NCBI GenBank assembly: GCA_036874045.1
Contig: CM072343.1
Coordinates: 10,002,001-10,066,000 of the forward strand
DNA from: Cymodocea nodosa
Lineage: Eukaryota > Streptophyta > Magnoliopsida > Alismatales > Cymodoceaceae
Direction of reading: 5' to 3'
Length of the DNA: 64,000 nt
Below are positions 26,125-61,641 of this stretch, piece after piece; the first letter of the stretch is position 1; every line of letters begins with the position of its first letter. The notes under the pieces are model-generated. The model searched no databases. It was not told the origin of the DNA and was given only the letters and a program-made list of their open reading frames with translations. The position numbers were made by a program, and so were the translations under genes.

Positions 26125-26327
26125 GTAGCACAAGTATTAGTAACTATGTATAATATAGTAAGTAGAAAAATATAAAAAGAAAATGAAAGTTTAATTATAG
26201 TTAGTAGTCCGTAGAGTTATTACTTAACTCAACGAACTTAGTCTATTGAGTTATGACCTAACTCCATAGAGGCATGTAAGTAGCTATGTTAATTTTATCT
26301 CTACTAAATTTTGTTTATGTTATACAG

Positions 26328-35556: not shown

Positions 35557-36894
35557 TCATTCAGTTATTCTCCCAGAAGAGGTATCAATTTCATTAACAA
35601 TTCTATTGATAGGGTTAGGTATTGCTTGCATTGGCAATCCTCCAGTTGGTCTAACTTCCATTGATTCTTTCTATCTAAGGGGTATATTTCTATTTATATT
35701 TTGATTTGCAGTATTTTCAAATACAAAATCTAGATGATCGTTTAATTGTTGGATTATCTTTTCTAATTTCTCTATTCTAGATCCTTGTTCAAGTAATGCT
35801 TCATAACTTATATTCTTCTCATTTAAATTTTCTCCTCCCAGGAAATTGTTTCTCCAAGACAAATTCGAGTGATTTCTCCAATTAGGATAATAAGAATTTC
35901 CAAAGTTATCTTTCTGGTTTCTAGCATAAATAATATCTAGATCATTTATGTTTGCATTCTTTTCTACTAGCTTTTGATTTAATGATAACTCTTCTATTTT
36001 CTTTGTTAATTTAGTTAATTTCACTTCTAGCATAGTACTTGAATCTATTTCATGCATTCCTCTTGGCAATATTCTTTTATCTGCAATAACTTCAGCCGAC
36101 TTTTCCCACTATGTAGTTCTTTTTGCAAAGTTTTCTAAATATGCCCATGCTTCTTCACTAAGTTTTAAAAATCCATTTTGACAAGTAGATTCTAATAAAG
36201 ATTTCGTTGAAACATCTATGCCTTCATAAATTATACCTATTAATTGTGCTTTACTCATTGCATGATGTGGACATTGAGTCAGTAAATCTTTAATTCTTTC
36301 AAAATATTTCTAGAATGATTCACCCTGTTTTTGGCTAGATATTAATATTTCCTTTTTCTTTTTAATCGTTTGATGTGTTGGATAATATTTTTCCAGAAAA
36401 ATAGAGCAAAATTCAGTCCATGTAGAAATTGAATAAGGTGATAGAGTATATAACCATCTCTTAGCTGTGTCTTTTAAAGCAAAAGGGATATATCTAAGTT
36501 TAACAGCATCTATACTCATGTTCGACATTTTCATCATTTGACAAACTTTGTTAAATTCTCTAATGAAATAATAGGCATCCTCTCTTTCTAACCCATGAAA
36601 ATGTGGCAATTGACTAATATAATTAGATTTCAATTCAAACCTATCTCCCTCAAAGTTTGGCAATCAAATACATGAAGGTTCATCAACTAATTCCAGATAC
36701 AAAATTTCTCCTAATGGTTTTTCTACTAGAGCAGCCATCTCTACGTTCTCTTTTAAAGAAAGGTTAGCTACACCCCAAAGGATTTCGTTAAAGTCCAATT
36801 CAGAAAATGTTTCAGTGTGCCTCTATGTTGAATATTCTTGGGTAGGTATTCTTAATAATCGATTAGTGCTAAGTGAACGAGTCCATGTGCTCAT
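35557..36894 (-). pseudogene. gag: Athila gag (capsid part) of D
   Basis: 1338 bp from ATG (36894) to TGA, six fewer than C and G, explained by an in-frame 6-bp loss near 36158. It contains LPNFEGDRFELKSNYISQLP, FHGLEREDAYYFIREFNKVC, FALKDTAKRWLYTL, the SLNQKLVEKNANINDLDIIY linker where Athila gag normally has a zinc knuckle, and NSYYPNWRNHSNLSW. Stops include one near 36310 and one at 36663. Confidence 0.85.
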
Positions 36895-37828: not shown

Positions 37829-40098
37829 TTAGTCTCTATTCCTAAGTTCATCTACTTCCTTCTAGAGTTTTTCTAATTGTTGCTCTAATTGATTAATCCT
37901 CTCTAGAGCTCCTGTAATGCCTCTAAAAGGTTCAGCAATCTCTACAGCTACAAAATTTCTATACTCTTTCACTGAAATGATTCTTGATTTGATCCTTTTT
38001 GATGCCCATTTAGTGAAATCGAAACAATCCACCATCAGCAGTGGAATCAAATCTCCATAAAACAATTTCTTCTTTACTGTTCTCAGCTTGGAGATAAAAA
38101 CTACAGACCAATTTATTTGAATTCTCTTTACAACTGCAAACATGGCCCATTTGACAAATTGACTCAGTTCTATGTCATGGCCTTGTCGTTGATAGACATT
38201 CTTAATCAAAATGTTAGCTATCATGTGTGTTTTACCATTTAAATGCTTCAGTCTATTTAATAGAGGCACACTAGGATTGATAGCCAAACTGTCCTTGATT
38301 TCCTATTCTATCCATTCAACGATAGTTGTACTTTCTAATATTTTCTTTCCTTCATTCTTCAATCCAAAAATGTTGTAGAGAGCTCTGGTGTTATCTGTAC
38401 ATCAGCTTCCTCTATGTTGGAAATTAATCATTCTCCTTCTCTTAAGTTTGCATAAAAGCAGGGCACTAAATTTTCATATATTGCATGCCCTCTTTCTTGA
38501 GAAATAAAATTCAGTAGACCTTGGAATTCAAATAATTCTTTGATTTCTTGCATTCCGCCCCAATTTACTAGTCTACTGTATATAACATCATAACCCCTAA
38601 TTTCTTGGTATTTATGATATACTTCCTAACTCCAAAAATGTACTTCATTTAAAATTGTTGTTTCAGTCGGGTCAGGAATTTGACTTTGTTGTTCTAGAGG
38701 GGTTTGTTCTTGATCTTCCTCTACCATAGGCTGCACTTGAACATGTTCTATAGATTCTGGAATTTTTGATTTTGCCTTTGTCTATGGTGGTGAGCCAGCA
38801 GAACTCTCTACTCTGTCTTGAATTCTTTCCATAAATTGCTGAAGAGTTTCTTGCTCTTCAATGGAATCTGTAAAGTCATTTTTGTCCAAATGGCTTCATT
38901 CAGCTTCTTCTTCATTTTCGGTTCTTTCTTCTTCCTCCTAACTACTAATCTGCATTGTCACTGTTCTTTCTGATTTTGTGGCAGATTGGGATGGAGTCAC
39001 GAGCAATTTAGTTTCTACCCTAATTTCTGTTTCTTCTTCTTGTACAGGCTGTAGACTAATTTCAACCTATTTTTCTTCTTCTCTTTGCTCTTGTTGCTGC
39101 TGCTGCTGCTCGTCCTCAGAATCGGATAGCAGGTTTATAAAAATTGGCTCCACAGGCCCTGTTGCTATTGGTGCTTCAGATTTAATCTCTTTTTGACATT
39201 CAGGCACTATCTCTTTTCCTTTCCTTCGTGTAATTAATTGTGCCTGGTCTTCCTCTTCTTCTTCTGAAATTAAATCTAAAAACAAAGGCTCTACACACCT
39301 TTGAGCCACATGTACTAGCTCTTCTTGTTTAACTTTTTCTATAATTATTGGCCTCGAAGGACTAGCTTCATCTCCTTTTGCAGTAGGTTTGACAGTAGTT
39401 CTAGCAGTAGTTTCTTGATGCTATTCCACTTTAATTTTATATTGGGCTTGCAATTTTTTTGCAGCCCTTCTCTTACGTAGTGCATCAAACACTAGATGTG
39501 CTTTGGCTACTGCTAAATCTTCTAGTTCTCCTTGGTTTTTTCCAACTTGAACTAGTCCTTGAAATTCTTTTAATTCTTCTTCAATCGAAGGCCCCAACAT
39601 TTCTGCTCATGTCAATGGCTTAAATGGTGGAACTGAAGGTCTTGGCTGTTGTTCCTCAGGAACAGGTCTTTCAGCAGTTGGCTTGTCTTGTCCTTTAGTT
39701 GCCTCTTCTTCATTTTCTTTCCTTTCTTGCTCCCAGATCGCCCATTTAGCTCGTCTACAGATTCGTCTTTTGAACCAGAGCCGGGACTTACGTTGGATTA
39801 ATTCTAGGGCAACTTCGTTGTTTGGCCTTATTTTTCTTTCCTTGCTTACAACAATTTCCGTAGCAACCTTTATTCTTATTTCCATTATTTGAGGTATTTG
39901 TATACCCAAATCTACTAAAACTCTTCTAAAGTTAAAAAGTTCAGATTCTACCTTCTGTAGCTCTTTTTCTCTTGTCGTATTTCTGATTTTTTGTCGCGTG
40001 TGCCATTCCTCTAACTCTTTCAGAAATTCTGATGTGTCAACAGCATCTTCCTAGAACTCATGTGTCATCTTCCTCATCATGGAATTACACAACGACAT
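37829..40098 (-). pseudogene. Accessory ORF of Athila D (plant-transposon-protein-like)
   Basis: From the ATG at 40098 (MSLCNSMMRKMTHEF, then an amber stop) to a TAA at 37829-37831: 2270 bp, about 756 codons, with stops and one net frameshift. Coiled-coil-like N-terminus (KELEEWHTRQKIRNTTREKE), Glu/Gln-rich acidic middle including a poly-Gln run from a CAG/CTG repeat at 39091-39112, then the conserved part: EIKELFEFQGLLNF, ENLVPCFYANLREGE, PSVPLLNRLKHLNGKTHMIA, RQGHDIELSQFVKWAMFAVV, KLFYGDLIPLLMVDCFDF, and a C-terminal coiled coil ERINQLEQQLEKL. Homologous to the copia B ORF. It sits where Athila elements carry an env-like ORF. No signal peptide or membrane span seen. Confidence 0.65.
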
Positions 40099-40643: not shown

Positions 40644-41323
40644 CTAAGTAAAACTCGAGTAGTCCTCTACTTTGACTTCTTCTATAATTCCAAAGGAGCT
40701 TTTTGGTATTTTGAGAATAGGTCTAGGTCTTTGTCCATTTACTTTAAATATATTCTGATTTTTAGGATTTTCAATTTCAATAGCTCCATAAGGATAAATA
40801 TTTCGAACTATGTAAGGTCCTGCCCATCTAGATCTTAATTTTCTTGGATGGTTATGGAGTCTAGCCATGTAAAGATATACTTCTTGTCCTATTTCAAAGC
40901 TTTTTGGAATAATTTTCCTATCATGCCAGAATTTCATTTTCTCTTTTTCTCTTATAGTCTTCGAATAAGCTTCATTTCTAAATTCTTCTAATTCAATTAA
41001 TTTCATTTTTCTATTTTCAAAAGCTTGATTTAAATTAGTATTCAAAGTTTTTAATGCCCAATAAGCTTTATGTTCTATTTCAGCAAGTAAATGACAAATT
41101 TTTCCATATACTAGCCTAAAAGGTGACATACCTAAGTTTGTCTTATAAGCAGTTCTATAAACCCAAAGTGCATCTATCAATCTATTAGCCCAATCTGTTC
41201 TGGTAGGATTTACTACTTTTTCTTAGATTAACTTAATTTGTTTGTTAGCACTTTCTACTTGTCCACTTGTTTGCGGATGATATGATGTTGCAATTTTGTG
41301 GTTTACTCCATATTTCTTCATTA
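40644..41323 (-). pseudogene. pol (INT): Integrase C-terminal half of D
   Basis: It resumes after element C with the [20 protein letters not shown] segment followed by VES, where the glutamate is the third catalytic acid of the D,D-35-E triad. Then come [39 protein letters not shown] (GPY/F) and the end [11 protein letters not shown] at 40644. One stop near 41226. The insertion of C falls between the second aspartate and this glutamate. Confidence 0.85.
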
Positions 41324-41328
41324 AGGCT
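41324..41328. other. Target duplication of element C (left copy AGGCT)
   Basis: AGGCT here and again at 55498-55502. Removing C and one copy restores a continuous integrase reading (F, E, A, L, M, K, K, Y) across the join. This proves the nesting order. Confidence 0.95.
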
Positions 41329-41644
41329 TGTTTAGAATGAAAAAGTGCATATTATTAACGGTTAAATGATGGTTAATTGCATAATATTTAGCTTATCATA
41401 TGAGAATTAAGCCATTAGGTTATAATTGCACTGTTATATGCTTTAATTGAAGAATCTGCTTAATTTTGGGGAATTAATGTTAATTTAGCACATTTATGAA
41501 CTGTCGGTAAATTGCAGGCTGTGAAATTCTTAAGTATCCAAAAATGCATCTGAGCATTGGATAGTTATACCTGTAACTCTCCGGAATGTTATTTTATGTT
41601 TAAACTACTGCTGACACGTGTTGAGAGCTGGTAGATTTACTTAC

Positions 41645-41753
41645 GTTATAACTCGTTAAGTTAGTATAACTGCACGCATTGAGTTACATGAAAATACATT
41701 AAGGCAACGCATTAGGTTAGCGTTATAAACTTAAGTTATTATTTTTGCACATG
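41645..41753 (+). promoter_or_regulatory. U3 module shared with copia LTRs (C 5' LTR copy)
   Basis: Complement of the copia module, with landmarks TTAAGGCAACGCATTAGGTT and AACTTAAG then TTTTTGCACATG. The 3' LTR copy at 53959-54067 keeps CACGTG at its end, and by eye its first 31 bases match copia A exactly. Confidence 0.75.
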
Positions 41754-41987
41754 TTTTATAGTTAAATCAGCGAAGGAAGTCCGTTGAGTTATCTATAACT
41801 CCACGAACTATATATTTTCTAATATGCCACTGTAGCGGTTGCAGGAACAGACAGTTAGAAGGAAAAACCACGTTTGCACGTATCATGCAGGAATTCAATC
41901 GTGCAAGGAGAAAGAAATCATCGCCGTTGATCTGAAGGAAGGAAATCCAACCGACCATTCAAGCAGAAGCAGTTACCACTGAAGAAA

Positions 41988-41994
41988 TATAAAA
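41988..41994 (+). promoter_or_regulatory. LTR TATA box
   Basis: TATAAAA, 660 bp into the LTR, followed by a purine-rich GAAAAGAAG stretch. The 3' LTR has the same at 54302-54308. Transcripts would begin near 42020, giving a long R-U5 leader. Confidence 0.6.
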
Positions 41995-43189
41995 GAAAAG
42001 AAGAAAAAGAAAGAAAGAGTGTGATCGATGGACAACCAATGTATATAGAGGAGGAGCACCGAGCTTTCTGCAGACAGTATCGGCGATTCTCTAAAGTATC
42101 ACACCAACCATCGTATCACCACCATAATCACCAATCATCGGAGGTCTGTGAGGATACTTGCCTGATGTCGGGTCGATTCCGAGCCAAACACAGTGCTTGA
42201 CAACCACTATGAGGAGTGATCACGTCGCGGGAAGGGAAGACATTTTCACCAAGCGCCGACTCATATTTTAGGAGATCGTAAAGCTTTTAGCTTTGGCTTC
42301 AGGTTGATGCCTGTATGCTGAAGAGGAGATCATCTTGCAATTCTGGACTCGCAATTCTATAGGGAGAGGAGACAGAATTGTAAGTGGTTCAATTTTCAGT
42401 AGTGTAATCGCGTTGCAAGTAGTGTCGGAAGTATTTACTGTCAAGTGAAATTACTTTACATTTCACCTTTCGCCCATCACATCAAAACAAAAATATCAAA
42501 AACAATTTATCTTTGTTTGTATGTTGTATTTGAGTGTTGTATTGTTGGTGTTGTATCGTGATTAATGTTATCTGTATCAATTTTATGATTGTTTTATGTT
42601 AGTTTCAATTTTACAGTTTACTGAAATTGGTTCGTACAAAACAACTTAAAGATTTTAATGGTTATTGTTTGAATCATCTGAATGTTAGTATTGCATATGA
42701 TAAATCCAATGTTAACTAGCATTAAAAAGCTTAATTGATGTTATTTACAATCTGTGGAATCGCCCAATGGTTGGCTGAATTTCTCTGTAATTAGCAGTAT
42801 TATAAAGAAAAGACAAGCTCATGGAGTTAACTTAAGTCCATGAGGATAGTCCATTGAGTTATCAATAACTCAACGAACTTAGTCTGTTGAGTTAACTGTA
42901 ACTCAACGGAGTGCTTATTGAATATAAATTTGAATTGTTCACAATCAAACATTTCTTAAATTTGTCAGCAATTCCCTGTGGGATCGACCTGTACTTGCAC
43001 ACTAATACAATAGACACTGTGCACTTGTAGTTAAAGTACAAATTGGAATTAATATCTAAATTGTATTAAAGCTTGTTTGTTTACTTCTAAAAGAAAGAAT
43101 AGGCATAAAGATAAATTAACTAAGTAAAAATAGAAGTAACAAATCCAAATTTTTCTAGTGTAGTGCTGGGAAAACACAAACAAGTTTTA

Positions 43190-43207
43190 TGGCGCCGTTG
43201 CCAGGGA
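43190..43207 (+). other. Primer binding site of C, tRNA-Asp
   Basis: TGGCGCCGTTGCCAGGGA differs from the tRNA-Asp complement by one G-to-A change. It lies 7 nt after the LTR end. Confidence 0.9.
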
Positions 43208-43291
43208 TCTGAATTGAATAGATATAAGCAACTGTTAGAGCTGTTTCAAATTAATAGTCAGAGTTGTGTGTTTTCTTCTGTAATTGAGAAT

Positions 43292-44253
43292 ATGGCATAT
43301 GCTTATGCTCAAAGATTTCTGAAACCTTTAATTAGCATATGTGAATTCTGCAATTCTGAAGGACACGACATTTCTGATTGTTTGAAATTGAGACATTTAC
43401 AGATTGATTGATCCCATGAACAACAAATGAATTATCCTCAATACAATAGAGCCGAGTATGAGAATCCTATAGTTTACCCAACTGATGGTCAGTATAGAAT
43501 GTGTAATATGATGAGAGACACTGAAGTTTGGGATAGCTATGACAGATTGGAGCATAGTATAGAGCAAAATCTGGACAAACTGGAATACTTTGTGTGTCAA
43601 CAACAAGAAGTCAACCAACTAAACTATAAGGAGGCATATTCAGAACCTAAACAGGATATAATTTACGAAACTGAAAAAGCCATAAAGAAAATTGATCAAA
43701 AATTGAATGCAATGAAATTAAATGATCTGGAAACAAAATTAAAAGCATTAGATAAAAATGCAATGAAAATACAAGTTTTGCAATAGGACAATGAAAATTA
43801 TAATGTTATAAACTTGCACAACTTGCAAAATATACAACAAACAGAAAACACAAATGTAAGAGAATTTAAAGAATGCACTTTAAAACTAAAAACAATTTAA
43901 GATCATAATCACGAAAATGATATACAAAAACATCATGAAAGTAACGAAAATCTAGAAGATGTATGTGTAACATTAAGATCTGGAACTAATATACCACCAA
44001 GAACTCAAAATGAAAATGATATGAAGGTGGACAAGAGTAAAAATCAAAATGGTAATGAAAATGTAATAGCTGAAAATCTAGAAATCACTGAAAAACAATC
44101 TGAATCTGCAATTGAAGCTAAAAATGATCAAACAAATCAACTGAAAGAAAAAGAGTCTTTGAAATCAAAATCTTTAGCACCCTATCCTGAAAGATTACAA
44201 CAAACAATTCCTGAAAAACAAGAAAAAATAAGAGAAATTTTTGAAAAAGTACC
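43292..44253 (+). pseudogene. Nucleocapsid-like zinc knuckle and linker of C
   Basis: MAYAYAQRFLKP then CEFCNSEGHDISDC (CCHC), a Tyr/Asn-rich linker, the coiled-coil-like KIDQKLNAMKLNDLETKLKA segment and LRSGTNIPPRTQ, then NQLKEKESLKSKSLAPYPER and IREIFEKV. Stops at 43409, 43784 and about 43900. It is joined at 44254 to protease sequence by a deletion of about 210 bp at short shared bases (TACC), removing the PPCAKFLKD-type region. Confidence 0.75.
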
Positions 44254-45522
44254 ATTCTAGAAAGAACCTTAATAGACTTAGGTGCAGGTATAAATGTTAT
44301 GCCAAGTGATATATTTGCATCCTTAGGATTAGAAGGCTTAACTCTTACTAGTACGGTTATTCAATTGGCTGATAGAAGCATAAGATACCCTAGAGGAAAA
44401 ATAGAGGATGTCTTAATTAAAATCAAGAATTTTATATATCCTATTGATATTGTAATTCTGGATTCCCAACAAATTAAGCATAAAAATAGTGATACATCTT
44501 TAATTTTGGGAAGGCCATTTTTAGCAACATCAAGGGATGTTATAAATTGTAAAACTAGAGTAATGAAATTAGCATATGGTAATGAGGATACTGAATTAAA
44601 TATTTTTAAACTAGAAAGGTTTTAGGAGTTAGAAATGTCCTTACATACCATAGACTTTTTAGAGGATGAAGGAGATATGTTAGATGATGTGATTCAAGAA
44701 GAATTAAATAGGCAAATCAATTTTGAAACTTTAGAAGAAAGTGAAAGCATAAATATAGAAGGAGATCAGGAAGAAATTAATTTAAAAAATGATGATGTTC
44801 AATTAGGAGCTCTAGAATTAAAACCTTTACCTTCTGAATTAACCTATATATTTCTAGAAGATAAACGGACATGTCCAATCATTATTGCTTCAGATTTGAA
44901 AGAGGATCAAATAGCTAAATTAAAAGAGGTAATAAAAAGTTATAAAGAAGCAATAGGATAGACTATGACTGATATAAAAGGATTAAGTTCAACTTTATGC
45001 TGTCACCACATATATTTAGAAGAGAATGCTAAACCTGTTAAAATTCCTGAGAGGAGATTAAATCCAAACCTTAAGGAAGTAGTCAGGAAGGAAATAGTTA
45101 AATGGTTAGATAATGATATAATATATCCGATTTCTGATAGCTCGTGGGTTAGTCCAATCCATGTAGTTCCCAAGAAATCAAGATTAACAGTTATTAGGAA
45201 TGAAAGTCAAGACTTGATACCTACTAGAATTCAATCAGGTTGGAGAGTATGTATAGACTATAGAAAGCTGAATGCTGTGACTAGGAAAGATCATTTTCCC
45301 TTACCTTTTATAGATCAAATGTTGGAAAGATTAGCAGGGTAAGAATATTTTTGTTTCTTAGACGGGTATTCAGGGTATACTCAAATTCCAGTAGCATTAG
45401 ACGATCAAGAGAAAACAACTTTCACCTGTCCTAATGGAACTTATGCCTTTAAAAGAATGCCATTCAAATTATGCAATGCACCAGCTACCTTTCAAAGGTG
45501 TGTGTAGGGCATATTTACTAGA
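44254..45522 (+). pseudogene. pol (PR-RT): Protease and RT (first part) of C
   Basis: Protease active site DLGAGINVMPSDIFASLGL near 44277, flap-side VIQLADRSIRYPRGKIEDVL, then LILGRPFLATS. RT follows with SSWVSPIHVVPKKSRLTVIR, WRVCIDYRKLNAVTRKDHFP, PLPFIDQMLERLAG, then RMPFKLCNAPATFQRC. Stops at 44623, 44960, 45340 and about 45507 are single-base changes of the codons in D. Confidence 0.9.
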
Positions 45523-46330
45523 ATGACTGATGAATTTTTAGAAATATTTATGGATGATTTTATTGTATATGGCAACTCATATGAAGTGTGTTTAAGCAAT
45601 TTAGACCAAATATTAAAACGCTGTGTGGAAAAAAATCTAGTTTTAAATTGGGAAAAATGTCACTTCATGGTTAAACAAGGAATAGTCTTAGGGCATGTTG
45701 TTTCTAAAAAAGGGTTGGAAGTAGATAAAGCTAAAATAGATGTAATTTCTAATCTACCAGAACCTAAATCAGTAAAAGATATTAGATCATTTCTAGGACA
45801 TGCTGGTTTTTATAGAAGATTTATTAAAGACTTTTGCAAGATAATTAGACCTTTAACTAATATATTAAAAGATGTTCCATTTAACTTTGATAAAAATTGC
45901 AAGGAAGCATTTTTTGGACTTAAGACTAGCTTAATTTCAACTCCTATAATTCAAGCACCTAATTGGAACCATCCATTTGAATTAATGTGCGATGCTTCTG
46001 ATTTTGCTGTAGGAGCAATGTTAGGACAGAAAATAGAAAAATCTCCTAGAGTGATTCATTATGCAAGCAAAACCTTAAATGATGTTCAAGTTAATTACAC
46101 AACTACTGAAAAGAATTATTAGCTGTTGTGTTTGCTTTAGAAAAGTTTAGATCATATTTGATTGGAGCTAAAGTAATAGTATACATGGATCATTCAGCTC
46201 TAAAACATCTAATAAAGAAAAAAGAAACTAAACCTAGATTGATCCGATGGATATTATTATTGCAAGAATTTGATCTAGAAATTAAAGATAAAAAAGGTTG
46301 TGAGAATGTAGTAGCAGATCATTTATCAAG
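45523..46330 (+). pseudogene. pol (RT-RH): RT palm end and RNase H of C
   Basis: FLEIFMDDFIVYGNSYEVCL keeps the FMDD polymerase box. Then [40 protein letters not shown], RNase H start [20 protein letters not shown] and [20 protein letters not shown] with [15 protein letters not shown]. One frameshift near 46118 ([10 protein letters not shown]). The active-site acids look intact. Confidence 0.9.
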
Positions 46331-46960
46331 ATTACAAATAGAAAAATCAAATATTGAAATTAAGGATAATTTTCCTGATGAACAATTAATGACCATCAAC
46401 ACAATGCCTTGGTATGCAGACATAGTTAATTACTTAGTTACTGGTTTAACACCTAAGGATTGGAATAGACAGGATAAGAAATTGTTTTTCTCAAGAGTAA
46501 AATATTACTATTGGGAAAACCCTTACTTATTTAAGAAATGTCCTGATCTGGTTTTAAGGAGGTGTGTTCCAGAAATTGAATATTCGAGCATATTGTCTTT
46601 CTGCCATGACCAAGCTTGTGGAGGACATTTTGGTTCAGGGAAAACTACTGCAAAAATTCTACAATGTGGGTTTTATTGGCCAACACTATTCAAAGATGCT
46701 CATAAATATTGCTTAAGTTGTTTAAGATGTCAACAAATAGGAATAATATCAAAGAGGAATATGATGCCTCTTAATCCTATTGTTGAGGTTGAAATCTTTG
46801 ATGTGTGGGGAATAGATTTTATGGGTCCATTTCCTATATCTAATCAATTTAATTACATATTGTTGGGAGTGGATTATGTATCTAAATGGATAGAAGCTAT
46901 TCCTACAAAAACTAACGATAACAAAGTGGTAATACAATTTATAAGAACAAATATATTTGC
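46331..46960 (+). pseudogene. pol (INT): Integrase N-terminal half of C, fused in frame to accessory ORF
   Basis: HHCC motif ([25 protein letters not shown]) and the first catalytic aspartate in [20 protein letters not shown]. After [11 protein letters not shown] the frame runs directly into [17 protein letters not shown] of the accessory ORF, all within one open frame (46128-47120). The second aspartate, the glutamate and the C-terminal module are missing, so this copy could not integrate itself. Confidence 0.85.
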
Positions 46961-48279
46961 AGGGCCTGTGGAGCAGATTTTTATTAACCTGCTATCCAAT
47001 TCTAAGGAGGAGCAAGAGGTGCAAAGAAAAGAAAAAAATCAAGCTGAAATTAGTCTGCAGCCTATACAAGAAGAAACAGAAATTAGGGTAGAAATTGAAC
47101 TGCCCGTGACTCCATCCTAATCTGTTACAGAATCAGAAAGAACAGTAATAGATCAGATTGGTAGTCAGGAGGAAGAAGAAAGAGTAGAAAATGAAGAGGC
47201 TGAAAGAAGCCATTTGGACAAAAATAATTTCACAGATTCCACTGAAGAGCAAGAAACTCTTCAGCAAATTATGGAAAGAATTCAAGACAGAGTGGAGAGT
47301 TCTGCCGGCTCACCACCACAGACAGAAGCAAAAGCAAAAATTCAGGAATCTGAAGAGAATGTCCAAATGCAGCCTATGCTAGAGGAAGAGCAAGAGCAAA
47401 CCCCTCTGGAGCAACAAAGTCACCTTCCTGACCCGACTGAAACAACAATTTCGAATGAAGTACATTTTTGTAGTTAGGAAGCTTATATCAAATACTAAGA
47501 AATAAGGGGTTACGATATTATTTATAGTAGACCAGTAAATTGGGATGGAATGCAAGAAATCAAAGATCTATTTGAATTCCAAGGTCTACTGCAATTTATT
47601 ATCTCAAGATAGAGGGCATGCAGTATATGAGAATTTAGTGCCCTGTTTCTATGTAAATTTAAGAGAAGGAGAAGGAGAATTAATTTCAAATGTGGAGGAA
47701 GCTGATGTATAGATAACACCAGAGCTTCTCCACAACATATTTGGTTTAAAGAATGAAGGAACAAAAATTTTGGAGGATACAACTGCAATTGAATGGACTG
47801 AGCAGCAAATTAAGGACTGTTTAGCTATCAATCCTGGTGTGCCATTATTAAACAGATTGAAGCATTTAAATGGTAAAGCACACATGGTAGCTAACATTCT
47901 GATTAAGAATGTCTATCAATGACAGGGCCATGACATAGAATTAAGTCAATTTGTCAAATGGGCCACGTATGTAGTTGTAAATAAGATCCAAATAAATTGG
48001 TCTGCAGTTTTTACCTCCAAGCTGAAAATAGTAAAGAAGAAATTATTTTATGGAGATTTGATTCCACTACTGATGGTGGATAGTATTGATTTCACTAAAT
48101 GGACATCAAAAAGGATAAGATGTAGAACCATTTCGGTGAAAGAATACAGAAATTTTTTAGCTGTAGAACTAGCAGTACCTTCTGGAGGAATTGCAGGAGC
48201 AGTAGAGAGGATAAATCAATTAGAGCAGCAATTAGAAAAACTCCAGAAGGAAGTAGATGAACTTAGGCATAGAGATTAA
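46961..48279 (+). pseudogene. Accessory ORF of C (N-terminus deleted)
   Basis: Matches D from GPVEPIFINLLS onwards. It has the acidic middle, then IIYSRPVNWDGMQ, EIKDLFEFQGLLQFI, LAINPGVPLLNRLKHLNGKA, HMVANILIKNVYQ, KKLFYGDLIPLLMVD and the C-terminal coiled coil ERINQLEQQLEKLQKEVDEL ending RHRD at 48279. Stops at about 47118, 47476, 47608 and 47922 plus frame changes. Confidence 0.7.
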
Positions 48280-48721
48280 ATTGTATTGTTCGTCTACTTG
48301 TGTAAAATTGTATGAAATTGTATGATGTACTTGTAATGTAATTGATTCATATTAATGAATATAATTTTTCAGATGCAATTTTCATACTTATTTGAATGTG
48401 AAATGAATAGAATTTATTGAATATTATGTACTTTGTGGAACTTTATGAATATGTAACAAATTTACAATTTGATGAATGACAGGATAACTGCTTAAAAATT
48501 TCTACATGTTATAAGGTAAAATGTAAATTCTGCATAACATAAAATGACCTGCAATTTAAATCTTTATATAATGTTCAGATTTAAATGTATTTTAATCAAA
48601 ATGAGGCATTAATGACAAAGATTTAACTTTATTACAGTTAGCAGAATGACAAAGAAAAAAAAAAAAAAAAAAAAAAACAGAATAGAAAACTTACGAGAGT
48701 GAAACTTAGAAGTTGCTAAGT
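48280..48721 (+). other. Noncoding spacer between accessory ORF and array
   Basis: AT-rich with no ORF. A 26-bp A-run lies at about 48653-48678. It is conserved in D (37440-37828) and partly in G (23969-24180). Element 1 has only the last 50 bases, joined to the CGGTTTAACCG array. Confidence 0.6.
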
Positions 48722-48905
48722 GTTAACTCAACGAAGTAAGTCCGTTGAGTTAACCGTAACTCCACGAGGTCAGTAATATAATATAAGGTCACTCCATTGA
48801 GTTATCTGTAACTCAACGAAGTTAGTCCGTGGAGTTAGCAACAGTAACCGACTGTGTTTTGTTGAGTAATCTATAACTCAACGAGGTTAGTTCGTGGATT
48901 AAGCA
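48722..48905. repeat. AACTCAACG palindromic array of C
   Basis: Alternating GTTAACTCAACGAAGTAAG, TCCGTTGAGTTAACCG and TAACTCCACGAGG units, then TAACTCAACGAAGTTAGTCC. Adjacent units are inverted copies, so hairpins of 10-12 bp can form in DNA or RNA. Confidence 0.75.
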
Positions 48906-49012
48906 GAACGGTTATTCTTTTAACCACAAATGAAACTTCGTCGGTTTAGTGGTTACCAAAATTTGAAATTAGTAGTGGTACACGTACCCATTAAAATAGG
49001 AACCACGATGCA

Positions 49013-49073
49013 CGTTGCAAGACACGTTCTTGCAACGAGATTTATTCACTTTAGGGATGCGTAGTATATATAT
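49013..49073 (+). promoter_or_regulatory. Internal promoter-like block of C
   Basis: A 25-bp perfect inverted repeat (49013-49037; arms CGTTGCAAGA and TCTTGCAACG, centre CACGT) is 27 nt from TATATATAT (49065-49073). Spacing is identical in all four copies. A start about 30 nt downstream leaves a leader of about 100 nt before the splice donor. Confidence 0.55.
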
Positions 49074-49203
49074 GAAACAGAATGTTATTTACGAGTTACC
49101 AGCACTTTTAAGAGAAAGGAGAAAGCGTTGGAGAAACTGGAAGGAGAAGCAGTTGATTCAACCTTCATCCGACAACAAATATTTATAGAATGGAAAGCTT
49201 CAG

Positions 49204-49213
49204 ACTGGTATGT
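49204..49213 (+). other. Splice-donor-like site of C
   Basis: ACTG then GTATGT, with the exon ending at 49207, 30 nt before the gag ATG. Together with the acceptor at 50766 it defines a 1559-nt intron containing all of gag. Confidence 0.5.
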
Positions 49214-49236
49214 AATTAATCTTCTGTTATTTATTT

Positions 49237-50580
49237 ATGAGCACATGGACTCGTTCTCTAAGCACTAAACGATTAGTAAGAACATCTATCCAAGAATTTT
49301 CATTGTAGAGGGGTATTGAAAATTTTTCTGAACTGAACTTTAACGAAATTCTTTGGGGTGTAGCTAACCTTTCTTGAAAAAAGAACGTAGAGATGACTGC
49401 TCCAGTAGAAAAACCATTAGGAGAGATTCTATATCCTGAATTAATTGATGAACCTTCATGTATTCGATTGCCAAACTTTGAGGGAGATAGGTTTGAACTG
49501 AAATCTAATTATATTAGTCACTTGCCACATTTTCATGGATTAGAAAGAGAGGATGCCTATTATTTCCTTAGAGAATTTAACGAAGTTTGTCAAATGATGA
49601 GAATGCCGAACATGAGTATAGATGCTATTAAACTTAGATATATCCCTTTTGCTTTAAAAGATACAACTAAGAGATGGTTATATACTCTGTCGCTTGATTC
49701 AATTTCTACATGGACTGAATTTTGCTCTATTTTTCTAGAAAAATACTATCCAACACATCAAACGATTAAAAAGAAGAAAGAAATATTAATGCGTAGCCAA
49801 AAACAGGGTGAATCATTCTAGAAATATTTTGAAAGATTTAAAGATTTACTGACTCAATGTCCACATCATGCAATGAGTAAAGCACAATTAATAGGCATAA
49901 TTTATGAAGGCATAGATGTTTCAACGAAATCTTTATTAGAATCTACTTGTCAAAATGGATTTTTAAAATTATGTAGTGAAGAAGCATGGGCATATTTAGA
50001 AAATTTTGCAAAAAGAACTGCACAGTGGGAAAATTCGGCTAAAGCTATTGCAGATAAAAGATTATTGCCAAAAGGAATGCATGAAATAGATTCCAATACT
50101 ATGCTTGACGTGAAATTAAATGAATTAACAAAGAAAATAGAAGAGTTATCATTAAATCAAAAGCTAGCAGAAAAGAATACAAACATAAATGACTTAGATA
50201 TTATTTATGCTAGAAACCAGAGAGATAACTTGGGAAATTATTATAATTCTAATTGGAGAAATCACCCGAATTTATCTTGGAGAAATAACAATTTCCAGGG
50301 AGGAGAAAATATAAATGAGAAGAACATAAGTTATGAAGTATTAATTGAACAAGGAGCTAGAATAGAGAAATTAGAAAAGATAATCGAACAAGTAAACAAT
50401 TGTCTAGAATTTATATTTGGAAATGCGGTAAATCAAAATCAGAATAGAAATATACCACTTAGATAGAAGGAACCAATGGAAGTTAGACCTACTGGAGGAT
50501 TGCCAATACAAGCTATACCTAATCCTGTCAATAGAATGGTTAATGAAATTGATACCTCTTCTAGGAGGGCAGCTGAATGA
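49237..50580 (+). pseudogene. gag: Athila gag (capsid part) of C
   Basis: 1344 bp, 447 codons plus stop. LPNFEGDRFELKSNYISHLP, FHGLEREDAYYFLREFNEVC, FALKDTTKRWLYTL, KAQLIGIIYEGIDVSTKSLL, LTKKIEELSLNQKLAEKNTN, WRNHPNLSWRNNNFQGGENI, then a coiled-coil-like ARIEKLEKIIEQVNNCLEF. One frame throughout, with single-base stops near 49306, 49374, 49819 and 50464. It has the capsid and the NHPNLSW tail of Athila gag but no zinc knuckle, and it lies downstream of pol. How the particle gets its nucleocapsid function is unclear. Confidence 0.85.
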
Positions 50581-50744
50581 AGCAGCATATCTGAAACAAC
50601 TATCTGTATGTATATATGTTTTTATTTTTATTTTAAGTTAATAGTATTGTAGAGTTAATTTTTAACTCAACGAACTTAGTCCGTTGAGTTATGCCTTAAC
50701 TCCACGAGGGTGTGCAGTAGTTATGTTAATTTTTGTCTTTGCTA

Positions 50745-50766
50745 AATTTTTGTTTTTATTTTACAG
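50745..50766 (+). other. Splice-acceptor-like site before the F-box gene
   Basis: A T-rich tract TTTTTGTTTTTATTTTACAG ends at 50766, 9 nt before the ATG at 50776. Equivalent acceptors end in TTATACAG in G (26327) and D (35373). Confidence 0.5.
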
Positions 50767-50775
50767 AATCGACAA

Positions 50776-51914
50776 ATGGAATTAATGCAATTACTGTTGG
50801 ATGCACAAAGGGAAATACTAAGTAACTTGTCAGCTAAAGATCTGTGTAGGATGTGTTGTGTATCAAATGAAATTAAAGACTGTATTGAAGAAAAATATTT
50901 TCAGGGACTACAAGCTGCAAAAATGACTAAGATTAGAGATGGATTCATATGGAGGTCATTTAATCGTAGTTCAAATACCCATGAATATCTGGCTATGGAA
51001 GAAACTACTGGAATTCCAACTAATGCATTAGAAGAAATGAGTCATATTATGGGGATAGATGAAGGATTAATCATATACAAGACGAGACCAAGGTATGCAA
51101 GTTTATCATTACTTGAGATTTTGATAAGAAATCCTATAACAGGAGAAGAATGTAATATAGGAAGACCTAATATATTTGAAGCACCAACTGAAAATTGTGG
51201 GTCAGCTTTAATATTTTTTGATAAAAATTTTGCAATTCCTGAAAAATTATATTATTGGAGACCTACAGGAAATTGGGGTAAAGATTTACGCTTAAGTGTG
51301 TATAATTTTCTGAACAGATCTTGGAATGAAAACATTATAATATATCTAGGACAGAAATCATTAATTAACCAAACACATGTCATACTTGATGGTTATATTT
51401 ATTTAGTCACAGAGATATCAATAGCATATAAATCTGATTTATACAGAGTGAGCATAGACAGTTATGATGATTATACAGAAATTTTACCTGTCCCGAGTGA
51501 AATAGCTAAACCACCATCTGAAAAATTTAATAAAATTCAAATAGGAATGTGGTATAATGAAAAGATGATCCTACTTTATGTCTGATAAGATGGTGGGATA
51601 AACTGATGAAATTTCAAATATGGATTATGGAAGACATGAATGAATGGAAGTGGGAAGAGGAGTATATTGAAATAGATGTAGAAATAGAAACTGCTACATT
51701 ACCCTGGAACTAGAAAGGATCCCTTTCTGCATTACATATCATTAATGGTAATACACTCGTATTTGGAATTTATAATATATTGCATGTTTACAAATTAAAA
51801 AGGACCAAGAACTGCATTAAAACATAATTAATAGCAAGAAGAACTATGCCTAAAAAGTTTGCTTGGACTGATACATTTATTCCATTTGTTTCTACTTTTC
51901 AATCATGTTCTTAA
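50776..51914 (+). pseudogene. F-box-like gene carried by element C (one frameshift)
   Basis: About 378 codons. Residues 5-50 form an F-box (LLLDAQREILSNLSAKDLCR, MCCVSNEIKDCIEEKYF), the Skp1-binding part of SCF ubiquitin ligases. The rest has F-box-associated-type strands: LEILIRNPITGEECNIGRPN, LYYWRPTGNWGKDLRLSVYN, VILDGYIYLVTEISIAYKSD, KIQIGMWYNE, then after a small indel at about 51560 DDPTLCLIRWW, and SALHIINGNTLVFGIYNILH. The frame is otherwise open for 269 codons, longer than most ORFs nearby. It follows gag by 196 bp and precedes the 3' noncoding region. It is probably a captured host gene. The target is unknown. Confidence 0.75.
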
Positions 51915-53628
51915 GTTGTGATTTTGTGTGTTTAATGTTGTGTATTCTGCATTTATTTAAAAAAAAAAACAAAAAAAAAATAAAACAAAATATCAATCCA
52001 GTTTGTTGGTATCTGTTCTGGGAAACCAACTGGCTTGCTTGTGAGCCACCAAAGGCATAGAAGCCTGGGTTCCACACAAGACACTGATTTATTAATACCT
52101 GTTAAATGTTATTTTGTTTTATATTCTGTGTTTATCTGGGAATGAACAGTTTTTCAGAATCAAAAATCAGAATATGCAGAAAGAGATACAAATGGAACAA
52201 GGTATGTAACCAATTACTTATCCTGAATTTTAAATCAAACAAAACTTTATTCATGCCTGCTACAATTACTATACTTATTGTCAAATCTTTTACATTGAGG
52301 ACAATGCAAAATGTAGGTATGGGGGGGAGGTAATTAAAGTAACAACCATGCAAGTTTGTTAATTAAAGGAATTAAAATGGTACTGCAAAGTTTTGAGGAA
52401 ATTGAAAATTTTTATGAACTTGCTATAACTATCCGATAATTGAGATTGTAAAATTTTTATAAACTGCTTGAATGTTATATTTAGAAGGCTATAGAAGATG
52501 CTATAGAATTTATTATTTATGTAAATCTAGATATAGTATCTTATGATTTTTCTGAATTTCATGAGTTTAACAGTTTCACGATTTTAAAATGAAATCAGAA
52601 TATTTAATGCTTAATCAGAAAATTATCTAAAGTCCTGAAGGAGCTGAGATGTGAATTCTAGATTAAATGAAACACATATGATGAAAGATACATTTACTTT
52701 GACTGATTGAACTTGTAGAATGACTTTTGTGTAGATCTTATTAAACTACAGATAAAGTATGAACTTATTGTTATGGATTGATATCTTTAGTAAATGATAG
52801 AAGCAGGATTATATGAGATTGGTGTTTTATTGCATCTGTATTAATGAAATACATGCATATATAGTATGTGATTAATGCTTTGTTTTGTGTGTGCATTTAT
52901 TTTTAGAAAAAAAAAAAAAAACCTTGAGAGTTTATTGACTTGTTTGATCACGAGCCTTTTGTACTTGAGCAGATAGGTATGTAAGGATTGTTGACCTAAA
53001 AAAGGACTCTGAAAATCTGGCAACCTAAGATCTTGATCAGATCTGGGATTGTTGACTGAAAGCTCGTTACATGGGTACATTAGAAAGCTCTTGCATGATT
53101 CAAGCTTGTCAAATTAACTTTTAAAGTACACAAAAAAAAAAAAAAAAAAACATATACTGTTCTGAAAAGATACAAGTATTTTGTGAAATACAGATATCTT
53201 ATGAATCGAGTATATTTTCTGTTATCTAGAATTGCTGAAATATGAATCTGGAATTAACTTTTGAAGTTGTTTAATGGAAATACAATTCTTTATTCTACTT
53301 GTCTTAATCAGATTGAATTGGATTGTACTTTGATTCGTATGTTGTTGAAATTTCTTCTGGAAAAACTTATTGGAAAATTTAGGATTACAGATGATGAAAA
53401 GAAGAACAAACGATAATATAATTAACACCTATATGAAGATGATATACTTTGCATGTAATTTACATATATTCTAAATATCTTTGCAGGTTGATTACTGAAA
53501 CATACAGAATATATGTTTATGCTAAACAGAAGAAAAAGAAAAGAAAACAAAAGGGGGAGAATTAATTCTAGCACTTTTTGAAAGACCAATTAATTAAATC
53601 TTAGTTTGCTAAGGGACTAGCAAAATTT
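51915..53628 (+). other. Noncoding 3' region of C with two polypurine-like tracts
   Basis: No gene. GGTATGGGGGGGAGG (52317-52330), preceded by TTGAGGACAATGCAAAATG, looks like a complete Athila 3' end signal but lies 1.3 kb before the true one. The region between (52331-53628) is the block shared with copia B. A-runs at 51960-51980, 52907-52920 and about 53132-53150. Hairpin TTTGCTAAGGGACTAGCAAA at about 53605-53624. Confidence 0.75.
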
Positions 53629-53642
53629 AGGTATGGGGGAAG
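53629..53642 (+). other. Polypurine tract of C
   Basis: AGGTATGGGGGAAG directly before the LTR start TGTTTAG. Confidence 0.9.
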
Positions 53643-55497
53643 TGTTTAGAATGAAAAAGTGCATATTATTAACGGTTAAATGATGGTTAATTGCATAATA
53701 TTTAGCTTATCCTATGAGAATTAAGCCATTATGTTATAATTGCACTGTTATATGTTTTAATTGAAGAATCTGCTTAATTTTGGGGAATTAATGTTAATTT
53801 AGCACATTTATGAACTGTTAGTAAATTGCAGACTGTGAAATTCTTAAGTATCCAAAAATGCATCTGAGCATCGGATAGTTATACCTGTAACTCTCCGGAA
53901 TGTTATTTTATGTTTAAACTACTGCTGACACGTGTTGAGAGCTGGTAGATTTACTTACATTATAACTCGTTAAGTTAGTATAACTACACGCGTTGAGTTA
54001 CATGAAAATACACTAAGGCAATGCGTTAGGTTAGCGTTATAAACTTAAGTTGTTATTTTTGCACGTGTTTTATAGTTAAATCAACGAAGGAAGTCCGTTG
54101 AGTTATCTATAACTCCATGGACTACATATTTTCTAATATGCCACTATAGCGGTTGCAGGAACAGACAGTTGGAAGGAAAAACCACGTTTGCACGTATCAC
54201 ATAGGAATTCAATCGCGTAGGGAGAAAGAAATCATCGCCGTTGATCTGAAGGAAGGAAATCTAATCGACCATTCAAGCAGAAGCAGTTACCACTGAAGAA
54301 ATATAAAAGAAAAGAAGAAAAAAAAAGAAAGAGTGTGATCGATGGACGACCAGTGTATATAGAGGAGGAGCACCGAGCTTTCTGCAAACAGTATCGGCGA
54401 TTCTCCGAAGTATCACACCAACCATCGTATCACCACCATAATCACCAATCATCGGAGGTCTGTGAGGATACTTGCCTGATGTCGGGTCGATTTCGAGCCA
54501 AACACAATGCCTGACAACCACTGTGAGGAGTGATCGCATCGTAGGAAGGGAAGACATTTTCACCAAGCGCCGACTCATATTTCAGGAGATCGTAAAGCTT
54601 TTAGCCTTGGCTTCGGGTTGATGCCTGTATGCTGAAGAGGAGATCATCTTGCAATTCTGGACTCGCGATTCTATAGGGAGAGGAGACAGAATTGTAAGTG
54701 GTTCAATTTTCAGTGGTGTAATCGCGTTGCAAGTAGTGTCGAAAGTATTTACTATCAAGTGAAATTACTTTACATTTCACCTTTCGCCCATCACATCAAA
54801 ACAAAAATACCAAAAACAATTTATCTTTGTTTGTATGTTGTATTTGAGTGTTGTATTGTTGGTGTTGTATCGTGATTAATGTTATCTGTTTCAATTTTAT
54901 GATTGTTTTATGTTAGTTTTAATTTTACAGTTTACTGAAATTGGTTCGTACAAAACAACTTAAAGATTTTAATGTTTACTGTTTGAATCATCTGAATGTT
55001 AGTATTGCATAATGATAAATCCAATGTTAACTAGCATTAAAAAGCTTAATTGATGTTATTTACAATCTATGGAATCACCCAATGGTTGGCCGAATTCCTC
55101 TGTAATTAGCAGTATTATAAAGAAGAGACAGGCTCGTGGAGTTAACTTAAGTCCACGAGGATAGTCCGTTGAGTTATCAATAACTCAACGAACTTAGTCT
55201 GTTGAGTTAACTGTAACTCAACGGAGTGCTTATTGAATATAAATTTGAATTGTTCACAATCAAACATTTCTTAAATTCGTTAGTAATTCCCTATGGGATC
55301 GACCTATACTTGCACACTGATACAATAGACATTGTGCACTTACAGTTAAAGTACAAATTGGAATTAATATCTAAATTGTATTAAAGGTTGTTTGTTTACT
55401 TCTAAAAGAAAGAATAGGCATAAAGATAAATTAACTAAGTAAAAATAGAAGTAACAAATCCAAGTTTTTCTAGTGTAGTGCTGGGAAAACACGAACA
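53643..55497 (+). repeat. 3' LTR of C (1855 bp)
   Basis: Co-linear with 41329-43182. It ends ACGAACA, followed by the target duplication AGGCT (55498-55502). Differences from the 5' LTR are nearly all G/A or C/T, often at CG (for example GCATTGAG versus GCGTTGAG). Confidence 0.95.
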
Positions 55498-55502
55498 AGG
55501 CT

Positions 55503-56190
55503 TCAAAACTTCTATTACAGAAATGAGTTCCTCTATCATTGATAATAGCTTTAGGTATTCCAAATCTAGCAAATATATTGGTTCTTATAAATTGTATTAC
55601 CACTTTGTTGTCATTAGTTTTTGTAGGAATAGCTTCTATCCACTTAGATACATAATCCACCACCAACAATATGTAATTAAATTGATTAGACATAGGAAAT
55701 GGACCCATAAAATATATTCCCCACACATCAAAGATTTCAACCTCAACAATAGGATTAAGAGGCATCATATTCCTCTTTGATATTCTTCCTATTTGTTGAC
55801 ATCTTAAACAACTTAAGCAATATTTATGAGCATCTTTGAATAGTGTTGGCCAATAAAATTCACATTGCAGAATTTTTGCAGTAGTTTTCCCTAAACCAAA
55901 ATGCCCTCCACAAGCTTGGTCATGATAGAAAGACAATATGCTCTGATATTCAGTTTTTGGAACACACCTCCTTAAAACCAAATCAAGACATTTCTTAAAT
56001 AAGTATGGGTCTTCCCAATAGTAATATTTTACTCTTGAGAAAAATAATTTCTTATCCTGTCTATTCCAATCCTTAGGTGTTAAACCAGTAACTAAGTAAT
56101 TAACTATGTCTGCATATCAAGGCATTGTGTTGATGGTCATTAATTGTTCATTAGGAAAATTATCCTAAATTTCAATATTTGATTTTTGTA
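55503..56190 (-). pseudogene. pol (INT): Integrase N-terminal half of D
   Basis: HHCC motif ([29 protein letters not shown]), first catalytic region [20 protein letters not shown] (the aspartate of WGIDF is tyrosine here), RTNIFARFGIPKAI and the second aspartate in INDRGTHFCNRSFEAL. It is cut there by element C. A stop near 56165 and the D-to-Y change disable it. Confidence 0.85.
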
Positions 56191-57100
56191 TTTATAATCT
56201 TGATAAATGATCTGCTACTACATTCTCACAACCTTTTTTATCTTTAATTTCTAGATCAAATTCTTGTAATAATAATATCCATCGGATCAATCTAGGCTTA
56301 GTTTCTTTTTTTTTTATTAGATGTTTTAAAGCTACATGATCCATGTATACTATTACTTTAGCTCCAATCAGATATGATCTAAACTTTTCTAAGGCAAACA
56401 CAATAGCTAATAGTTCTTTTTCAGTAGTCGTGTAATTAACTTGAGTATCATTTAAGGTTTTGCTTGCATAATGAATCACTCTAGGAGATTTTTCTATCTT
56501 CTGTCCCAACACTGCTCCTACAGCAAAATTAGATGCATCGCACATTAATTCAAATGGATGGCTCCAATCAGGTGCTTGAATTATAGGAGTTGAAATTAAG
56601 CTAGTTTTAAGTCTGAAAAATGCTTCCTTGCAATTTTTATCAAAGTTGAATGAGACATCTTTTAATAGATTAGTTAAAGGTCTAGCTATTTTGCTAAAGT
56701 CTTTAATAAATCTTTTATAAAAACCAGCATGTCCTAGAAATGATCTAATAACTTTTACTGATTTAGGTTCTGGTAGATTAGAAATTACTTCTATTTTAGC
56801 TTTATCTACTTCCAACCCTTTCTTAGAAACAACATGCCCTAAGACTATTCCTTGTTTAACCATGAAGTCACATTTTTCCCAATTTAAAATAAGATTTTTT
56901 TCCTCATATCATTTTAATATTTGGTCTAAATTGCTTAAACAAACTTCATATGAGTTGCCATATACAGTAAAATCATCCATAAATATTTCCAAAAAATCTT
57001 CAGTCATTCTAGTAAATATGCCTTGCATACACCTTTGAAAGGTAGCTGGTGCATTGCATAATCCGAATGGCATTCTCTTAAAAGCATAAGTTCCATTAGG
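56191..57100 (-). pseudogene. pol (RT-RH): RT palm and RNase H of D
   Basis: RMPFGLCNAPATFQRCMQGI, FLEIFMDDFTVYGNSYEVCL (FMDD box intact), then an open frame 56863-56192 from [20 protein letters not shown] through RNase H to [15 protein letters not shown] reads MDHVALKHL here. A stop lies near 56910. A stop replaces the cysteine codon of TFTCPNGTY at 57101. Confidence 0.9.
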
Positions 57101-58315
57101 TTAGGTGAAAGTTGTTTTCTCTTGATCCTCTAATGCTACTGAAATTTGATTATAACTTGAATATCTGTCTAGGAAACAAAAATATTCTTGCCCTGCTAAT
57201 CTTTCCAGCATTTGATCTATAAAAGGTAAGAGAAAATGATCTTTCCTAGTCACAGCATTTAGCTTTCTATAGTCTATACATACTCTCCGGCCTGATTGAA
57301 TTCTAGTAGGTATCAAGTCTTGACTTTCATTCCTAATAACTGTTAATCCTGATTTCTTGGGAACTACATGGATTGGGCTAACCCACGAGCTATCAGAAAT
57401 CGGATAAATTATGTCATTATCTAACCATTTCACTATTTCCTTCCTGACTACTTCTTTAAGATTTGGATTTAATCTCCTCTCAAGAATTCTAACAGGTTTA
57501 GCATTTTCTTCTAAATATATGTGGTGACAGCATAAAGTTGAACTTAAACCTTTTATATCAGTCATAGTCCATCCTATGGCTTCTTTATAACTTTTCACTA
57601 CATCTTTTAATTTAGCTATTTCATCCTCTTTTAAATCTAAAGCAATAATGATTGAACAGGTTCGTTTCTCTTCCAGAAATATATAGGTTAATTCAGGAGG
57701 TAAAGGTTTTAATTCTAAATGTTGGGCATCAGAAGCAAGAGCTCCTAATTGAACATCATCATTTTCTAAATTAATTTCTTCCAGATCTCCTTCTATATTT
57801 ATGCTTTCACTTTCTTCTAAAGTTTCAGAATTGATTTGCCTATTTAATTCTTCTTGAATCACATCATCTAACACATCTCCTTCATCCTCTAAAAAATCTA
57901 TGGTATGTAAGGACATTTCTAATTCCTCAAACCTTTCTAGTTTGAAAATATTTAAGTGAGTATCCTCATTACCATATGCTAACTTCATTTCTCCAGTTTT
58001 ACAATTTATAACAGCCCCTGATGTTGCTAAAAATGGTCTTCCCAAAATTAAAGATGTATCACTATTTCTATGCTTAATTTGTTGGGAATCCAAAATTACA
58101 ATATCAATAGGATATATAAAATTTTTGATTTTAATTAAAACATCCTCTATTTTTCCTCTAGGGTATCTTATACTTCTATCAGCTAATTGAATAACCATAC
58201 TAGTAGGAGTTAAGCCTTCTAATCCAAAGGATGCAAATATATCACTTGGCCTAACATTTATACTTGCACCTAAGTCTATTAAGGTTCTTTCTAGAATGGT
58301 ATTCCTATAGTGCAT
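57101..58315 (-). pseudogene. pol (PR-RT): Protease and RT first part of D
   Basis: One open frame of 404 codons: protease TLIDLGASINVRPSDIFASF, LILGRPFLATSGAVINCKTG, an acidic linker, then RT with WVSPIHVVPKKSGLTVIR, RVCIDYRKLNAVTRKDHFLL, IDQMLERLAGQEYFCFLDRY. The longest intact RT segment in the window and a good one for lineage trees. A one-base loss at about 58300 separates it from the upstream frame. Confidence 0.9.
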
Positions 58316-61628: not shown

Positions 61629-61641
61629 CTTCCCCCATACC

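Follow-up and report, generated by a model that had tools for sequence, protein, structure and literature searches.

We analysed a 64,000-nucleotide stretch of the Cymodocea nodosa genome (assembly GCA_036874045.1, contig CM072343.1, positions 10,002,001 to 10,066,000; hereafter the window), in which self-comparison and translation revealed four copies, called C, D, element 1 and E, of one family of Athila-like long terminal repeat (LTR) retrotransposons whose gag gene lies behind pol. Copy C is a complete insertion with an LTR pair, a primer site, a polypurine tract and a 5-bp target-site duplication, AGGCT, read on both sides (41324–41328 and 55498–55502); its LTR ends and this duplication agree exactly with the outer limits, 41329–55497, given in the original prediction. 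On the plus strand, C contains, in this order, the primer site, a zinc knuckle, protease, reverse transcriptase (RT), RNase H, integrase, an accessory open reading frame (ORF), the capsid gag and an F-box ORF. The 5′ and 3′ LTRs (41329–43182 and 53643–55497, by self-comparison), both of the form TG...CA, are 96% identical, with 76 differences over 1854 aligned bases. Seven bases after the 5′ LTR lies the primer binding site, TGGCGCCGTTGCCAGGGATC (43190–43209), with the motif TGGCGCCGTTGCC found from 43190, which we take to be complementary to tRNA-Asp. The pol frame has, close to its start and with no capsid ahead of it, a CCHC zinc knuckle, CEFCNSEGHDISDC (43340–43381), followed by a linker between knuckle and protease that contains LRSGT (43427–44222), an aspartic protease region (44299–44625; the Pfam protease match, in the frame of D, is weak, 0.011), RT with the start of RNase H (44965–46122; RVT_1 at 7.3e-29 in the relative L016) and RNase H with integrase (H2C2 and rve, 46128–46960), all read by translation and the last also by Pfam. 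The C-terminal piece of integrase is absent from C and present in D and element 1. Behind pol lie the C-terminal part of the accessory ORF (47824–48243; a weak Transposase_32 match in relatives), the capsid part of gag (49393–49821; PF03732 at 2.7e-6, and at 1.9e-19 in copy L012), the C-terminal part of gag, which on translation has an NHPNLSW tail and no knuckle (49873–50466), an F-box ORF of 269 amino acids (50776–51585; PF00646 at 8.8e-7) and, before the 3′ LTR, the polypurine tract TATGGGGGAAG (53632–53642). Pfam support in the window extends to RNase H (1.2e-12) and the integrase zinc domain (3.9e-13). The frames of C are broken by in-frame stops, one of which is in gag. The pol-then-gag order, claimed beforehand for C, D and element 1, was read in all three, and E adds gag, F-box and LTR sequence.

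To follow the window family (family 1) through the source assembly (374.6 Mb, 28 contigs), we searched with the capsid of C and obtained 5571 first-look candidates, the best 150 of which, 92–100% identical, were scored; as in all our gag and protease searches, scoring covered the best 127–150 of several thousand candidates. Taking about every fourth match in the upper half of the 150 gave a sample of 20 loci. Pol domains of the family lay upstream of gag on the same strand in 14 of these, and an F-box match followed gag in all 20. In L014, integrase and gag are separated by an accessory ORF of ∼700 codons that is interrupted by a single stop, and the C-terminal part of the family-1 accessory ORF matches PF20167 (Transposase_32) weakly, at 3.5e-5, below the cut-off of that model. 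The same order thus recurs at many genomic sites beyond the window, which bears out the earlier claims that pol before gag is a trait of the family and that chance does not account for it; nor, among the copies examined, which came from the best-scoring candidates, did most have gag directly after the primer site.

The pol-before-gag order was found in five lineages. Amino-acid identity among their representatives is 45–62% in capsid and 63–79% in RT, so an old origin of the order is probable; the deep branching among the lineages was not resolved by gag, RT or integrase trees. Lineage 2 was sampled as eight 6-kb stretches (L023–L030, of which L023 and L024 include L001 and L002) with gag matches at profile positions 2–96, a choice that avoids family 1. 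Integrase ends ∼410–460 bases before gag in all eight, and protease and RT were also seen in five; of 16 lineage-2 protease matches, 11 had gag downstream, none had it upstream and five had none. Pol and gag occupy separate frames, pol first, with the exception of L043 (lineage 2, 1–2331), where a deletion between integrase and gag has brought capsid into the same open frame as RT, RNase H and integrase, so that the pol-gag order is seen directly. Lineage 3 is represented by L010, in which a primer site at 1460 is followed by a knuckle-linker-protease frame (1576–3204), an RT-RNase H-integrase frame (3208–6048) and a gag frame (6358–7293). Genome searches with the L010 gag and protease (best 127 of 6027 and best 143 of 5453 candidates scored) placed protease upstream of gag on the same strand for 54 of 70 lineage-3 gag matches and downstream for none, at a median distance of 3956.5 bases (3900–4020 in 42 of the 54); conversely, 53 of 125 protease matches were paired with gag. 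Frames of 1400 codons or more held 17 of the 125 protease matches, gag frames were often 454 codons long, and four pairs joined a pol frame of at least 1400 codons with a gag frame of at least 400. Pfam gag matches in lineages 2 and 3 ranged from 1.7e-22 to 7.5e-20. The lineage-3 3′ stretches gave no Transposase_32 or accessory match except a weak one (33%) in L034, past its 3′ LTR.

We then considered the 5′ end. In the ten 5′ ends where both primer site and intact knuckle were found (window copies C and 1, L003, L006, L010, L013, L031, L033, L035 and L037), the knuckle starts 150–206 bases from the primer site. Further, when L001–L030 were compared with three gag queries, each drawn from a different lineage, capsid was found upstream of protease in none of the 21 of these 30 loci that had a protease match, within the stretch covered, which reached back to the primer site in seven (L003, L006, L010, L013, L020, L021 and L028) and began inside the linker in most others. 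No 5′ capsid match was obtained in L031, L033 or L035 with the family-1 gag queries, or in L037 with all gag queries.

The units in C and in the lineage-3 copy L035/L036 have been copied with pol first. L035/L036 has the duplication GTTTC on both sides and an LTR divergence (K) of 0.011, and its protease match and then its gag match both lie between the LTRs, the 3′ one of which ends in TA, not CA. With assumed rates of 1.3e-8 or 7e-9 substitutions per site per year, L035/L036 would be about 0.4–0.8 million years old and C about 1.6–3 million years. The protease match of L035/L036 contains two stops. For L033/L034, only 146 LTR bases are in common because the 5′ LTR of L033 is truncated. We also compared nonsynonymous with synonymous substitution (dN/dS). 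For gag, the ratio was 0.30, 0.23 and 0.30 for E versus C, element 1 and D, respectively, 0.82 for C versus element 1, 0.55 for C versus D and 0.47 for element 1 versus D; part of this signal is decay, because the gag of E has eight in-frame stops. Means over fetched copies were 0.28 for capsid and 0.53 for the gag tail (both biased, because these copies were chosen by gag similarity), 0.46 for the F-box start, 0.22 for the linker, 0.76 for protease, 0.29 for the accessory ORF and 0.22 for RT, the last of which may include the divergent copy L010.

Of the other copies in the window, D extends over 61628 down to 31504 on the minus strand, with C inserted into it at 41323/55503; element 1 has the corresponding site without the insertion, near 2602–2606. 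Translation placed, all on the minus strand of D, protease and the RT start at 57101–58315 (also by Pfam), RNase H and the first part of integrase at 55568–56401, C-terminal integrase, beyond the C insertion, at 40647–41177, the accessory ORF at 37865–38284, gag at 35674–36738 and the F-box ORF at 34579–35363, and self-comparison placed the 3′ LTR at 31504–33702. The 5′ LTR of D (59559–61628) follows a polypurine tract and a further copy's 3′ end (61629–63992); D therefore stands in tandem, with an LTR shared with the upstream copy, rather than being a simple insertion. The same sign of a tandem, a polypurine tract ahead of the 5′ LTR, is present at L031/L032. Element 1, also on the minus strand, comprises a 5′ LTR at 6699–8494 (self-comparison), the knuckle, linker, protease, RT, RNase H and integrase at 1931–6543 and a gag cut by the window start at 1–903 (both by translation). 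Fragment E, on the plus strand, holds gag and the F-box start at 24257–26585 (self-comparison and translation), followed by a partial LTR at 26596–27951 (self-comparison). An LTR in the window carries a ∼485-base tandem duplication (27510–27993 and 27999–28483, 88% identical), and a second repeat family is present in four copies, about 78–91% identical (8570–10321, 11412–12972, 15747–17527 and 29705–30799).

We read the window copies as one family of an old Athila-like group of Ty3/gypsy elements with gag behind pol and, together with the origin and mode of working proposed below, give this reading a probability of roughly 0.8. It starts from what the copies themselves display, namely the gene order, the separate frames, the five lineages and, in two copies with duplications, movement as a unit. 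Because several distinct lineages have the swapped order, the swap looks like an old, workable design and not a local accident. The layout of the group is LTR, primer site, a pol frame (knuckle, LRSG linker, protease, RT, RNase H, integrase), a separate gag frame, polypurine tract and LTR; in the window family the accessory ORF lies between pol and gag and the F-box ORF behind gag.

How this order arose is suggested by the knuckles. The original prediction had spoken of a split gag, with the knuckle kept at the 5′ end and the capsid moved behind pol. This describes the window family, whose 3′ gag has no knuckle, but it does not describe lineages 2 and 3, in which a CCHC knuckle is present both at the pol start and in the 3′ gag (CTKCMLFDHENDEC and CEGCGLDNHSIDQC, respectively, in L024; CSYCHVKGHDESIC and CLGCNMVGHIVNEC in lineage 3; CSLCKLNNHADTEC at the pol start of L030 and CIACGILGHIMEEC in the gag of L043). 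Lineage 3 and L043 carry NHPNFSW tails, and the end of gag here resembles what we take to be the usual gag-pol joint before LRSGK. The two knuckles in lineages 2 and 3 are better explained by a duplication of gag, with subsequent loss of the 5′ capsid, than by a clean split: a second gag would have been acquired behind pol, probably through template switching, the 5′ capsid would then have been lost with the 5′ knuckle left in place, and the window family would afterwards have lost the 3′ knuckle. Instead of a duplication within one element, a pol-only element and a gag or gag-F-box element could have recombined. Both types of partner exist today, and gag and F-box stand together on the 3′ side in family 1; the gag-only and pol-only copies of the present, however, share junctions and appear to derive from pol-gag copies by deletion, and we consider such a fusion possible but on balance doubtful. 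It competes with the duplication as an origin alone and leaves the gene order itself unaffected.

As to how such an element could work, the position of the genes suggests that the full-length RNA would be translated into Pol first and that Gag, much like env, would come from a shorter and probably spliced RNA. Under this model no Gag-Pol fusion would be made, and Pol may reach the particle through the RNA, as foamy virus Pol does, with the knuckle at the pol start as a candidate RNA contact for Pol uptake. Gag-only and pol-only copies would be supplied in trans, as is suggested by the shared junctions of the gag-only copies L005 and L011 and of the gag-less copies L038–L040. The wider proposal that the clade dropped the gag-first plan once, long ago, with Pol carrying its own knuckle and translated alone, Gag made from a subgenomic RNA and Pol taken up through RNA, and that the clade may include most Athila-like elements here, is tentative, and we would put its chances a little short of even.

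Several observations weigh against this account. Six of the 20 family-1 loci depart from the common pattern: L013, L019 and L022 have the accessory ORF before gag and no recognised pol domain of the family, L005 and L011 have an LTR that leads into gag with pol absent, and in L010 the family-1 gag sits behind a lineage-3 element. L005 and L011 (oriented positions 6670–8400) have two deletions in common, through which pol and the greater part of the accessory ORF are lost. In lineage 3, 16 of the 70 gag matches are without a protease match within 8 kb and 72 of the 125 protease matches are without a listed gag match; the three unpaired copies that were read (L038, L039 and L040) are gag-less, with one common deletion junction. 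A spliced-RNA origin of L005/L011 and of the gag-less L038–L040 was rejected, as their junctions, by eye, are not GT-AG. In L028, 846 bases separate primer site and knuckle, still without a capsid match. L031/L032 (99.8% identity over 1807 bases) was discarded for dating: a polypurine tract lies ahead of its 5′ LTR, and the matching sequence extends 271 bases beyond the start of the LTR, into this tract and internal sequence, which indicates an LTR common to L031/L032 and a neighbour. Further, dN/dS is not low everywhere, reaching 0.92 for the F-box of C versus D, 0.82 for gag of C versus element 1 and 0.76 for protease. Relatives with the usual order may also exist outside the best-scoring candidates.

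This last point bears on the view that the 3′ gag is a captured extra of dependent elements, the particles being supplied in trans by gag-first Athila elements with the pol-gag copies as passengers. Gag-only and pol-only copies are indeed present in the genome, gag-first relatives could sit beyond the candidates scored, and Athila families with gag alone, as well as recombination from one family to another, are reported from Arabidopsis (PMC2410132, in part). Against this stand the absence of capsid upstream of protease from all 21 of the 30 loci with a protease match, the lack of reversed pairs (0 of 70 in lineage 3 and 0 of 16 in lineage 2), the retention of the 3′ gag across lineages at 45–62% identity and the gag dN/dS values (0.23 to 0.82 for window pairs, means of 0.28 and 0.53 for fetched copies), and we regard passenger status as improbable. 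That local rearrangement or nesting among ordinary gag-first elements produced the order at this locus is far less credible still: the window is heavily nested, with C inside D and D in tandem, but C is bounded by a duplication and an LTR pair of its own, and the order is repeated, at near-constant spacing, on many contigs and among divergent lineages. The same spread over contigs and constancy of spacing, together with the 5-bp duplications at C and L035/L036, make an artefact of assembly, conceivable as one assembly was the source, a negligible concern.

In LTR retroelements, gag before pol is treated as fixed. A pol-first group spanning several lineages, if real, would mean that the Gag-Pol fusion is dispensable. 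We also speculate that an F-box protein encoded on a retrotransposon could target host proteins, e.g. silencing factors.

With regard to classification, C has the TG...CA LTRs, primer site, polypurine tract and duplication of an LTR retrotransposon, and the lineage-3 copy L035/L036 likewise shows the features of this class; RT and RNase H lie before integrase, as in Ty3/gypsy elements. The domain order GAG-PROT-RT-RH-INT, by which a standard plant classification sorts Ty3/gypsy elements (Neumann et al. 2019, PMC6317226, in the part consulted), is not found here, gag being behind integrase or protease, and we therefore set the elements beside Athila as a variant and not as ordinary members. According to the same portion of that source, Tat elements have a second RNase H; in agreement with Athila, pol of L016, L010 and L030 gave only RT_RNaseH models and no chromodomain, the frames of L016 and L030 stopping before the integrase end. 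In Athila, an ORF behind pol is described as resembling Athila ORF-1 or Transposase_32 (PMC6317226 and PMC11728184, in part), and the lineage is said in the sections seen to include Athila4, Calypso, Cyclops and Diaspora (PMC6317226; for Diaspora, PMC1142308). The elements here resemble Athila in the order of RT, RNase H and integrase, the single RNase H, the long LTRs and, in the window family, the extra ORF behind pol; they differ in that gag is behind integrase and not before protease, that the pol frame starts with its own knuckle and that the window family has an F-box ORF. The NHPNFSW tail, LRSGK linker and tRNA-Asp primer site are, we assume, also Athila traits. The assignment to Athila remains putative and rests on partial criteria.

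A protein search with the element 1 capsid returned a single match, of 119 amino acids, and the lineage-3 RT-integrase had no match in IMG/VR. As a usual-order control we used a chromovirus (PF08284), for which both stretches read were too decayed to show the order. At L019 (2–1895), a decayed fragment has gag with a knuckle, CYNCKKPGHLSPNC, before RT, i.e. the usual order (n = 1); from its motifs it is apparently Ty1/copia. Among the top-ranked matches in titles and abstract beginnings of the open-licence PMC literature, we found no report of gag behind pol, and the portions seen of PMC2633040, PMC11728184 and PMC9289625 contain none. In the accessible part of PMC6317226, GAG was not reliably identified in 159 Ty3/gypsy elements, which was put down to divergence and mutations; elements counted as gag-less in surveys may carry gag behind pol, and these 159 deserve a look there.

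The gag-only or gag-plus-env Athila families of Arabidopsis, for which Marco and Marin describe recombination and list gag before pol (PMC2410132, in the part seen), resemble the elements here in the occurrence of gag-only copies and in the mixing of modules between elements; they differ, as far as that part goes, in that every pol-bearing element there also has gag, ahead of pol, whereas here gag follows. Tat, Ogre and Retand elements share with those described here a long region between pol and the 3′ LTR that holds further genes; gag behind pol is not mentioned in the sections seen (PMC11963269 and PMC7264820), where 9 of 63 Retand clusters are said to lack a GAG domain. A pol-first group, if real, would provide a second case, beside foamy viruses, for the entry of Pol into particles and the control of the Gag:Pol ratio. 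In foamy viruses gag precedes pol, and Pol is translated from a spliced RNA. The elements here would resemble them in that Pol is not fused to Gag and may be taken up through RNA. In foamy viruses, Pol is a separate precursor packaged through the RNA (PMC3196705, in part); the two systems differ in that gag comes first in foamy viruses and pol comes first in the elements of C. nodosa.

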